This document shows positions 52,074-63,716 of a stretch of DNA of 64,000 nt, one piece after another. The stretch spans positions 64,580 to 128,579 of the forward strand of contig CAKKRC010000018.1 in assembly GCA_919902495.1 (NCBI GenBank), given 5' to 3'. Origin of the DNA: Nitrospiria bacterium (GTDB lineage Bacteria; Nitrospirota; UBA9217). Both the position numbers and the translations under genes were made by a program. Numbering within the stretch: position 1 is the stretch's first letter; the number at the start of each line of letters is the position of its first letter. A model generated the notes under the pieces. That model saw only the letters and a program-made list of their open reading frames with translations, did not search any database and had not been told where the DNA came from.

Positions 52074-52571
52074 ATGGCTGTAGCAGCAGAAACTCCAGCA
52101 CAGGCCGCGGCACCGTCCATCGAGAAGCCGCACGAGACGCCTGCCGGATGGGAGCCGAACGTCCTGGCCTTCGCATGCCACTACTGCGCCTTCGCGGCGG
52201 CGGACCTTGCCGGCGTGATGCGGCTGTCCTATCCGCCGAACGTAAAGATCATCCGCCTGCCCTGCACCGGCAAGCTCGACCACATCCACATCCTCCGGGC
52301 CTTCGAGCGGGGCGTGGACGGCATCTTCGTGGCCGGCTGACTGAAAGGCCAATGCCATTACCTGGAAGGTAATAAGTTCGCAGCACGAAGGATCGAATAC
52401 GCACAGAAACTACTGACGAGCGTCGGCATCGACCCCGCGCGCCTGGAGATGTTCAATCTCTCGGCAGCCATGGGGCCGCGGTGGGCCGAGATCTGCACCG
52501 AGTTCACCGAGAAAGTCCGGAAGCTCGGGCCCTCTCCGGTGGCGGCGGCCCTCAAGAATCAGAAGAGTTGA
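52074..52571 (+). CDS. mvhD: MvhD selenoprotein (Sec at in-frame TGA)
   Basis: MvhD (methyl-viologen-reducing hydrogenase delta subunit) carries a [2Fe-2S] cluster and passes electrons to HdrA. The frame from the ATG at 52074 (GAGGAG 7 nt upstream) meets TGA at 52338-52340, codon 89, and continues without break to TGA at 52569, giving 165 residues. The residues around the TGA read FVAG-U-LKGQCHYLEGN, where MvhD proteins have GC-x-x-G-x-CHY. The downstream half also matches the family (RRIEYAQKLLTSVGIDPARLE). Selenocysteine at this position is known in methanogen VhuD. A 7-bp hairpin starts 16 nt after the TGA. Other cluster ligands are Cys (FACHYCAF, LPCTGK). A frameshift or true stop is much less likely because both halves align in one frame. 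Confidence 0.9.
52338..52373 (+). promoter_or_regulatory. UGA codon plus putative bacterial SECIS hairpin (mvhD)
   Basis: TGA at 52338-52340. After 16 nt, ATTACCT (52357-52363) and AGGTAAT (52367-52373) form a perfect 7-bp stem with a GGA loop. Bacterial SECIS elements lie at this distance just after the UGA. Confidence 0.7.
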
Positions 52572-52910
52572 ATGGTAAACAGCGACGATACTATGCTCGA
52601 GAACATCCAGCGATGTTTTGCAGCAGAAAAAGTTCTCTACTCAAAACATGCGCGCGATGAAATGGAGCATGATGAGTTCGGCGAAATACGGCAGCAAGAA
52701 GTAGAACATGCAATAGCCGGTGGAAAGGTCATTGAGTCCTATCCGGACGATGCACCGTATCCGAGCTGTCTCATATACGGGAGAACATCAAACAATAGGC
52801 CATTGCATGTTGTTTGCGCCTATGCCGGGGATAGTGATGTTACCGTGATCGTAACCGTATATCAGCCCGACCCGGAAAAGTGGCTGGATTTCCAGCGGAG
52901 GAAACCATGA
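52572..52910 (+). CDS. DUF4258 protein, probable toxin of a toxin-antitoxin pair
   Basis: A 112-residue protein with the DUF4258 pattern (YSKHARDEMEHDEFG, VIESYPDDAPYPSCLIYGRT, RPLHVVCAY), related to RelE/BrnT-like folds. It begins at the base after the mvhD stop and overlaps the YgiT-type gene by 4 bp. Such DUF4258 plus YgiT-type pairs are widespread and behave as candidate toxin-antitoxin modules, not proven here. The base composition is more AT-rich than its neighbours. Confidence 0.85.
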   Translation: MVNSDDTMLENIQRCFAAEKVLYSKHARDEMEHDEFGEIRQQEVEHAIAGGKVIESYPDDAPYPSCLIYGRTSNNRPLHVVCAYAGDSDVTVIVTVYQPDPEKWLDFQRRKP

Positions 52911-53143
52911 AGTGCATTATTTGCAAAGGGACCGATATTCGAATAAAGCCTGTTGAGGAAGAGATCAAGGTGGAACACGACATCGTGCTTATCCCAATGG
53001 ATGTGATGGTCTGCCAGAGTTGCGGGGAGCGCTATTACGACACGAAGGCCATGCGAAAACTTGAGGATACAAGGGAACAGCTAAAAAGAAGAGATTTAGC
53101 CGTCGAGAATGTCGGGAAAGTGCTTCGAGCAAAGGTTGCATGA
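52907..53143 (+). CDS. YgiT-type zinc-finger protein, probable antitoxin
   Basis: A 78-residue protein with CIICKG and CQSCGE zinc ligands and a YYDTKAMRKLED helix, as in the MqsA/YgiT N-terminal domain, but without the usual DNA-binding HTH. Start at 52907 (ATGA overlap with the DUF4258 stop) and its own stop overlaps the next start in the same way, so three genes are coupled. Confidence 0.85.
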   Translation: MKCIICKGTDIRIKPVEEEIKVEHDIVLIPMDVMVCQSCGERYYDTKAMRKLEDTREQLKRRDLAVENVGKVLRAKVA

Positions 53144-55053: not shown

Positions 55054-55060
55054 CAGCAAC

Positions 55061-55132
55061 CACAGAGACACAGAGGCACAGAGGAAGTCTTTTTTCAGTG
55101 AATCTCTCTGTGTTCTCTGTGCCTCTGTGGTG
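55061..55132. repeat. CACAGAGG-tandem hairpin
   Basis: The left arm CCACAGAGACACAGAGGCAC plus AGAGG pairs with the right arm CTCTGTGTTCTCTGTGCCTC plus TGTGG across about 25 bp. The same unit family recurs at 63643-63716. Confidence 0.8.
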
Positions 55133-55167
55133 ATATCTGTCTTGGACGTTATCTTTTGGAGGTTTCG

Positions 55168-56139
55168 ATGAAGAGCGGAAGCAATCTGGAAAAGGTCATC
55201 GCAAGCGGCAAGCCCGCGGTAACGGCGGAGCTCGGGCCGCCCATGAGCGCCGATCCCCATGAGGTCGTCGAGAAGGCCCACAAGCTGAAAGGGTTCTGCG
55301 ACGCGGCGAACATCACGGACTGCCAGACCGCCGTGGTGCGCATCTCGAGCATCGCCGCGGCATACATTGCCCTGCGGGAAGGGCTTGAACCGGTCATGCA
55401 GATGACCTGCCGGGACCGGAACCGCATCGCCATGCAGGCGGACCTTCTGGGCGCCGCTGCCCTGGGCCTCAAGAACTGCCTCTGCATCGCCGGCGACCAC
55501 CAGAAGTTCAGTGCGGCGGGCAAGCTCAAGGGACACCCGGGCGCGAAGAACGTCTACGATGTGGACACGACCCAGCTTGTCGGGATCATGAAGAAGATGC
55601 GCGATGAAAGCCTGCAGGAGGGCGGCGACAAGATCGACGTGCCGCCGAAGTTCTTCATCGGCGCTTCCTGGACGCCGATGGGAGACCCCATGGATTTCCG
55701 CCCCTACAACCTCAAGAAAAAGGTGGACGCAGGTGCAGACTTCATCCAGACCCAGGGGATCTATGATGTTGAGCTTTTTAGATCTCAGATGGAAAAGGCC
55801 CGGAACCTGGGGCTGCACGAACGGACGGCGATCCTCGGCGGCATCATCGTGCCCAGGAGCGCCATGATGCTCAAATACATGGATGCTTCGGTTGCCGGCG
55901 TCACGGTCCCGAAGGCGTTGATCGACCGCATGAACAAGGCGAAGGAAGCCGCGGGCGACGACAAGAAGAAGATGCGCGAGCTGCAGGAGGCGGAGGGCCT
56001 CAAGATCACCGTGGAGCTCATCCACCAGATCCTCGAGATCCCGGGCGTCAAGGGCGTGCATATCCAGGCGATCGAGTGGGAGAGCGCCATGGAGGGCATC
56101 GTCAAGGCTGCCGGTCTGTATCCGCGGCCGCAGGTCTGA
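55168..56139 (+). CDS. metF: Methylenetetrahydrofolate reductase
   Basis: About 323 residues. A flavoenzyme that reduces 5,10-methylene-THF to 5-methyl-THF, the last step of the methyl branch before the corrinoid protein. It shows the MetF TIM-barrel pattern: AVTAELGPPMSADPHEV, QMTCRDRNRIAMQADLLGA, LCIAGDHQ and FIQTQGIYDVELFRS. GGAGG precedes the ATG at 55168 by 5 nt. It lacks the large eukaryotic extension. It pairs with MetV and probably with the Hdr-Mvh module. Confidence 0.95.
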   Translation: MKSGSNLEKVIASGKPAVTAELGPPMSADPHEVVEKAHKLKGFCDAANITDCQTAVVRISSIAAAYIALREGLEPVMQMTCRDRNRIAMQADLLGAAALGLKNCLCIAGDHQKFSAAGKLKGHPGAKNVYDVDTTQLVGIMKKMRDESLQEGGDKIDVPPKFFIGASWTPMGDPMDFRPYNLKKKVDAGADFIQTQGIYDVELFRSQMEKARNLGLHERTAILGGIIVPRSAMMLKYMDASVAGVTVPKALIDRMNKAKEAAGDDKKKMRELQEAEGLKITVELIHQILEIPGVKGVHIQAIEWESAMEGIVKAAGLYPRPQV

Positions 56140-56140
56140 G

Positions 56141-56187
56141 AATCCGTTAGGCGTAAGGGGTAAGGGGTAAGGCGCAAGGGGGCGATC
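56141..56187. repeat. TAAGGGG tandem repeat
   Basis: A run of TAAGGGG/TAAGGCG/CAAGGGGG 7-mers. No full opposite arm is seen. Its last unit (AAGGGGG) forms the apparent ribosome binding site of the selenoglutaredoxin gene. Confidence 0.6.
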
Positions 56188-56190
56188 GAA

Positions 56191-56568
56191 ATGCCGAGGA
56201 GTAGAGGAATCATTCGTAACGTTGTATCGACGCTTCTGCTCAGCATCGTGCTGAGCTGGTCGTTGGTTGCCGTTGCCGCGCCGCGCGGGGCGATCGCGGG
56301 TGAGCCGAAGCGGTCGTACGGCTCCATCGACGTCATCATGTACCAGACCAGCTGGTGACCATACTGCAACAAGGCGCGGGAGTTCCTGCGCGGGATGGGA
56401 GTCAGTCTGGTAGAACACGATATCGAGAAGGACCGCCAGAAGGGCGAGGAAATGATGGCGAAGAGCGGCTCACGGGGCGTGCCGGTCGTCGACATCGAGG
56501 GTGTCATCATCCGGGGCTTTTCTCCCGACGCGATGCGTGACGCGATCGAGCGGAAAAGACGGGAATAG
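56191..56568 (+). CDS. Exported glutaredoxin-like selenoprotein (UxxC, Sec at in-frame TGA)
   Basis: A 125-residue secreted thiol-redox protein. From the ATG at 56191 (AAGGGGG 8 nt upstream) a signal peptide (VVSTLLLSIVLSWSLVAVAA) is followed by a glutaredoxin fold. Codon 56 is TGA (56356-56358) in YQTSW-U-PYCNKAREFL, exactly where glutaredoxins have the first redox Cys of CPYC. The frame continues to TAG at 56566 with the typical SRGVPVVDIEGVIIRGF cis-Pro and C-terminal region. A 7-bp hairpin begins 15 nt after the TGA. Selenoglutaredoxins are known as a class. It stands in the Wood-Ljungdahl region, after metF. A true stop is unlikely because the catalytic Cys codon itself is replaced and homology resumes in frame. 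Confidence 0.88.
56356..56391 (+). promoter_or_regulatory. UGA codon plus putative bacterial SECIS hairpin (glutaredoxin)
   Basis: TGA at 56356-56358, 15-nt spacer, then GCGCGGG (56374-56380) pairs with CCTGCGC (56385-56391, one G-U pair) over the loop AGTT. The GU in the loop matches the conserved apical GU of bacterial SECIS hairpins. Confidence 0.72.
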
Positions 56569-56659: not shown

Positions 56660-57460
56660 ATGCCGAAGATCACCATACCTGATATCTCTACGAAGAAGGC
56701 CGAAGGCAGGAAGATCACCGTCCTCACGGCCTACGACTTTCCCACGGCTCAGATCGTGGATGAGGCGGGGATCGACATCGTGCTCGTCGGCGATTCCCTC
56801 GGCATGGTGGTGCAGGGCATCGACAGCACCCTGCCCGTGACCATGGACGAGATGATCTACCACACGCGGATGGTCTCACGCGCCGTAAAGACCAGCCTTG
56901 TTGTGGGAGATATGCCGTTCCTGTCCTATCAGGCTGACAGAGCTGAAGCGGTGCGGAACGCGGGCAGGTTCCTGAAAGAGGCCGGTGCCGAGGCGGTGAA
57001 GCTCGAAGGCGGCGTTGCCGTGGTGGAGACCATCAGGGCGATCGTCGCCGCGGGCATCCCGGTGATGGGACATGTCGGGCTTACCCCCCAGCATGTTCAC
57101 GCGCTCGGCGGCTATAAAGTGCAGGGCAGGGACGAGGCCGCACGGGAGAAGATCCTCGCAGACGCGCGGGCCGTCCAGGAGGCCGGGGTCTTTGCGGTCG
57201 TGCTCGAAGCGATCCCCTCAGCACTTGCCAGGGAGATCGGCGGCATGCTCTCCATACCTACCATCGGCATCGGCGCAGGGCCTCACTGCGACGGACAGGT
57301 GCTCGTGCTCCATGATCTGCTCGGACTGTTTGACCGGTTCACTCCAAAATTCGTAAAACGGTATGCCAGCCTCAAGGACGAGGCGCTCCGCGCGGTGAAA
57401 GAATATAAGAAGGAAGTGGAGAGCGGAGCGTTCCCAACGGACGAGCAGAGTTTCAAATGA
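56660..57460 (+). CDS. panB: Ketopantoate hydroxymethyltransferase
   Basis: A 266-residue enzyme using 5,10-methylene-THF to make ketopantoate for coenzyme A. Clear family marks: [52 protein letters not shown] and [23 protein letters not shown]. The ribosome binding site is weak. It uses the same C1-folate pool as the surrounding genes and provides CoA precursor for the acetyl-CoA pathway. Confidence 0.97.
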
Positions 57461-63642: not shown

Positions 63643-63716
63643 CACCACGGAGACACAGAGACACTAGAGAAGGACAAAAAATTGATCTCTCTGTGACCTC
63701 AGTGCCTCTGTGGTAA
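63643..63716. repeat. CACAGAG-type hairpin before acsB
   Basis: The left arm CCACCACGGAGACACAGAGA pairs with the right arm TCTCTGTGACCTCAGTGCCTC plus TGTGG. Same unit family as 55061-55132. Confidence 0.75.

Follow-up and report, generated by a model that had tools for sequence, protein, structure and literature searches.

The window analysed here, a stretch of 64,000 nucleotides, carries a small glutaredoxin-like gene between metF and panB (Table 1). Close to it are mvhD, a gene resembling HdrA and one for a pterin-binding methyltransferase like those encoded in acetyl-CoA pathway clusters. Throughout, G and g handles are codes for genomes and genera, not names, and G000 is the genome of the window.

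A glutaredoxin-like frame containing TGA

The frame runs from ATG to TAG and its translation of 125 residues contains a single in-frame TGA, at codon 56; the nearest in-frame stop 5' of the ATG lies at 56161. PF00462 (Glutaredoxin) matches the product across the TGA, over residues 48–106 (E=3.2e-17; 62.9 bits against a gathering cut-off of 22.9), and relatives align through the same position with either Cys or Sec there. Third-position G+C is 0.80 before the TGA and 0.78 after it. The original prediction had described this frame, with a signal peptide at its start, TGA in place of the first Cys of a CPYC site and homology resuming behind it, and had asked for an alignment with U at codon 56; translation and alignment agree with it on each point. 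Its warning that standard gene calling would lose the gene was equally well founded, as mechanical ORF calling leaves only a remnant at 56355–56540 in another frame.

Table 1. Features of the metF–panB interval (window positions) and loci of the Sec-rhodanese discussed in the text
Feature	Position	Strand	Basis or remark
metF	55156..56139	+	PF02219; ordinary TGA stop
Possible ribosome-binding site, AAGGGGG	56176..56182	+	8 nt 5' of ATG; read from sequence
Sec-glutaredoxin-like gene	56191..56568	+	ATG to TAG, 125 residues, U56; translation, PF00462, homologues
Putative signal peptide, residues 1–29, likely cut AVA/A, not lipoprotein type	56191..56277	+	Hydropathy and AxA check
TGA, predicted Sec56 codon, start of U-P-Y-C active site	56356..56358	+	TGA in 11 species, TGC/TGT in others
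Resolving Cys59 codon	56365..56367	+	Invariant in alignment
SECIS-like hairpin, GCGCGGG-AGUU-CCUGCGC	56374..56391	+	bSECIS rules; synonymous silence, three species
Pro98 codon, expected cis-Pro of thioredoxin fold	56482..56484	+	Pro invariant in alignment
panB	56660..57460	+	PF02548
Sec-rhodanese, L044	1074-1463		Loci of this and the next row: seven g49 species and G397
Sec-rhodanese, L047, L049, L052, L084, L085, L086, L087

Several other features of the window were observed. The MvhD/FlpD gene (52074–52571, + strand; PF02662, E=4e-48) has an in-frame TGA of its own at 52338–52340 (VAGU-LKGQCHY) and is a second selenoprotein of the window, from a family already known. Beside it, at 52572–53143 (+), a DUF4258 gene is followed by one for a small CxxC protein that by eye resembles YgiT-type antitoxins, a possible toxin–antitoxin pair. 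A palindromic intergenic repeat, CCACAGAGACACAGAGGCACAGAG...CTCTGTGCCTCTGTGG, occurs at 55055–55134 and 63685–63714, with a further partial copy.

Reading of the TGA as selenocysteine

The genome contains selA and selB, a tRNA-Sec gene (selC) that scores above the Rfam cut-off and has a UCA anticodon, and a selD that contains one TGA itself, so that all four genes named as a check in the original prediction are present. Genome-wide reassignment of TGA is ruled out, since neighbouring metF and panB stop at ordinary TGA codons, as does a CooC-like gene named by reading. The genus has three species, G000, G001 (76% identity) and G002 (65%), and the TGA occupies the same codon in each of them; it can therefore not be attributed to chance, while a dN/dS of 0.08–0.12 between congeners in the region behind it indicates that this region is translated. 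The UGA stands, moreover, at a redox position where homologues carry Cys, the pattern by which bacterial selenoproteins are recognized.

Free-energy z-scores for the region after the TGA (-1.4 to -1.6) were not significant, and explicit bSECIS rules and a test of synonymous sites were therefore used. Published rules specify a loop of 3–9 nt with G in the first two loop positions, a stem of 4–16 bp, a distance of 16–37 nt from the UGA and an energy of -7.5 kcal/mol or lower (PMC13188914). The predicted 7-bp hairpin with a GU-containing loop was located starting 15 nt after the TGA, and on folding it lies within all of these limits (spacing 22 nt, 7 bp, loop AGUU, -11.9 kcal/mol); none of 19 relatives with Cys passed the same rules. 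On its own the hairpin is weak evidence because about 2–11% of the TGAs in the window do as well, 10.6% passing the -7.5 limit and about 2% reaching -12. The corresponding hairpins in genus g49 and in G295, introduced below, fall short of the stability that the published rules demand, and an Rfam search returned nothing relevant. Across codons +2 to +12, within which the hairpin lies, 0 of 11 sites are synonymously variable, compared with 25 of 44 in the rest of the gene. The hypergeometric P is 4.6e-4, and a scan statistic that lets the silent run fall at any place gives P=0.012.

Taken alone, the hairpin thus gives modest support for a reading as Sec, and the combination of these lines is strong. 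Codon 56 is accordingly the predicted site of selenium incorporation, and we put the probability that the gene encodes a genuine exported selenoprotein, acting as a thiol/selenol-disulfide redoxin of the envelope, at roughly 0.8.

Export, fold and proposed mechanism

Signal peptides were judged by their n/h/c build, by hydropathy over 13 residues and by the presence of an AxA site. The N-terminus of the window protein has this build, with a mean hydropathy of 2.4 and an AVA/A site. The N-termini examined across the family, whether of Sec or Cys forms, have a positive start, a hydrophobic core of 2.0–3.3 and mostly an AxA-type site, as against 0.9–1.5 for cytosolic controls; in G295 the helix may be kept as an anchor. 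Many Cys relatives combine a signal peptide, DUF4124 and glutaredoxin (PF13511 and PF00462 were found in the one relative tested, the others being assigned by reading translations). Because the relatives examined share signal peptides, export appears to be the rule of the family and not a peculiarity of the Sec forms. A periplasmic location is thus predicted from sequence, and the proposal of an exported Sec protein of glutaredoxin fold gains from the Sec machinery, the alignment through the TGA and these family-wide N-termini.

An AlphaFold model of the protein has pLDDT 97–98 over the domain and a low-confidence N-terminus with one helix. It resembles the solved structures of cGrx1 (PDB 7c10; TMt 0.91), BC3987 (0.91) and NrdH (1h75; 0.84); cGrx1, of Clostridium/Alkaliphilus oremlandii, derives from a clostridial Sec-glutaredoxin. 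The thioredoxin fold, C/UPYC centre and invariant Pro at the cis-Pro position are those of a glutaredoxin. Glutathione is bound by glutaredoxins through TVP and GG-D motifs, and the TVP and GGYD of E. coli Grx3 read RGVP and RGFS in the aligned window protein. A search with TIGR01380 found no gshB in any of ten genomes, all three congeners included, though GshF-type synthesis or uptake may supply glutathione; proteins of the DsbD_TM/CcdA type are encoded in all ten.

These observations bear on whether the protein could be a true, Sec-containing glutaredoxin working with glutathione exported or imported into the periplasm. Grx3-type proteins are its best sequence matches among solved structures, and E. 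coli GrxC functions in the periplasm once exported, according to its citation in PMC12453122 and PMC7726332. Against this stand the ten genomes lacking a detected gshB and the replaced motifs, with which glutathione binding may be lost, and we regard such a role as unlikely. Since gshB was not found and the contact motifs are replaced, the protein is probably not glutathione-dependent; the fit of the fold and the DsbD_TM proteins in all ten genomes, taken with these two points, favour an NrdH-like envelope reductase.

As such a reductase, the protein would be made by decoding of the UGA at codon 56 by SelA, SelB, tRNA-Sec and SelD, directed by the downstream hairpin, and would then be exported, its mature domain adopting a thioredoxin fold of the glutaredoxin/NrdH type around a U-P-Y-C centre. 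Sec56 would attack a disulfide (or persulfide) of a periplasmic partner, and Cys59 would resolve the resulting selenenyl-sulfide. Electrons would probably come from a membrane carrier of the CcdA/DsbD type rather than from glutathione, CcdA being a possible donor suggested by its presence in the genomes; the direction of electron flow, the partner and the substrates are likewise putative.

Distribution, neighbours and comparison with known systems

Sampling covered 396 genomes of the phylum together with searches of two families, the relatives being Nitrospirae MAGs. Sec forms were found in 11 species from three families of the phylum, and about 27 relatives have Cys at the codon. The Sec forms comprise three species of g1, the genus of G000 (W-U-P-Y-C), seven species of g49 (W-U-P/T-Y-C) and G295 (W-U-P-H-C). 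A search of a plasmid collection gave only ordinary GrxC-type matches of under 60% identity.

The original prediction had linked the protein to the metF/hdr/mvhD pathway beside it, and the order metF–grx–panB does recur in four genomes, those of the three-species genus and G011, a member of another genus with a Cys form. It is confined to these four: relatives elsewhere have neither metF nor panB within the flanks examined. The adjoining MetF and PanB, furthermore, have no signal-peptide-like N-termini, whereas the protein between them is predicted to be exported, and the Sec forms of g49 adjoin exported rhodanese and TlpA-like genes instead. A role as redox partner of the adjoining Wood–Ljungdahl/Hdr–Mvh enzymes is for these reasons very improbable, and this part of the prediction is not upheld.

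In all seven g49 species an exported rhodanese lies directly upstream of the Sec-glutaredoxin gene. It has an in-frame TGA of its own (FYCRGxGUGLSKQAA) and a conserved 6-bp hairpin, GGCTGC-GGTC-GCAGCC, with a GGUC loop, and it scored below the cut-offs of TsoB and rhodanese_LYCAU, two models of selenoproteins already known. An exported TlpA/ResA-like gene lies downstream in three of the seven (G112, G216 and G389), and G397, whose glutaredoxin is a Cys form, has both the Sec-rhodanese and a TlpA-like gene. Given these neighbours, an envelope function in redox or sulfur chemistry is a closer fit than one tied to MetF or Hdr. It is conceivable, as a tentative extension, that several Nitrospirota run a dedicated exported selenol relay of Sec-glutaredoxin, Sec-rhodanese and a TlpA/ResA-like protein, in which selenium chemistry would serve to pass reducing equivalents or sulfane sulfur through the envelope.

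In a tree built with the catalytic column masked, at least 3–4 changes between Cys and Sec are required, and constraining the Sec forms to one clade, as a single origin would have it, was rejected (AU test, p=0.0125). The domain spans only about 84 columns and the tree has several long branches, which qualifies this rejection and leaves the exact number of changes unsure. The exported form has switched between sulfur and selenium several times within the phylum. Both selA and selB were found in every Sec-glutaredoxin genome in which both were sought, except G216; G400 and G401 were searched for selB and have it. In G216, a 96%-complete MAG, no selA and no above-cutoff selB were detected, and the neighbouring selAB pair may be missing from the assembly. 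Least probable of all the readings is a pseudogene or a sequencing or assembly error, in which the TGA would stand for a miscalled TGC or have arisen by nonsense mutation and the gene would be dead or truly a Cys form, for although every genome is a draft assembly and the G002 copy (L011/L058) may be decaying or misassembled, given an additional in-frame TAG and a frameshift near its end, the TGA recurs at the identical codon in three congeners and two more families, the region behind it has low dN/dS with synonymous silence across the hairpin, and the Sec machinery is present.

At the metF–panB locus of G011 the orthologous gene carries Cys in a genome that has selA and selB. Nature has here exchanged Cys and Sec at a single orthologous locus of two genomes that both retain Sec decoding, a setting in which to ask directly what an envelope redoxin gains from selenium in anaerobes. 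More generally, small exported selenoproteins of uncultured Nitrospirota are split at their TGA by mechanical ORF calling.

Among known protein families, YruB (TIGR02196) is the NCBIfam model that the window protein matches best, and all 20 members tested match it; membership was rejected, since its 79.5 bits fall under the cut-off of 88.55. The UXX-star proteins (NF041212, NF041114) resemble glutaredoxins and carry Sec at the corresponding position, but a score of 42.1 bits, where the cut-off is 66, excludes membership in NF041212, and UXX-star family 1 has UxxT (PMC13188914) where the window protein has UxxC, with Cys59 kept. Exported Cys glutaredoxins, the build of most relatives in the phylum, share the domain and export and differ in having Cys for Sec and often DUF4124, which the window protein lacks; GSU2812 of Geobacter, likened here by its description, is a periplasmic glutaredoxin with a signal peptide (PMC7726332).

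Work on the Sargasso Sea (PMC1088965) and on genomes (PMC1794560) reported Sec-glutaredoxins (UxxC), which have been catalogued since 2005–2006 and appear in a 2026 catalogue beside several exported-type Trx-fold selenoproteins, e.g., DsbA-like and DsbG-like (PMC13188914). WP_010943784.1 of Geobacter and cGrx1 (7c10) share with the window protein PF00462 and Sec as first active-site residue; the window protein has a signal peptide and lies outside the catalogued examples, some of which may be exported too. The original view of an exported Sec-glutaredoxin as unusual survives in weakened form: no description of one from bacteria was found in the open-licence literature, while export is the norm among the relatives, a periplasmic glutaredoxin exists in GSU2812 and Sec-glutaredoxins are an established family. 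Sec-glutaredoxins and periplasmic Cys-glutaredoxins are thus already known, and the novelty, a modest one measured against the catalogued Sec-glutaredoxins by description, lies in the export of a Sec form, in the repeated change of this form between Cys and Sec and in its pairing with a rhodanese.
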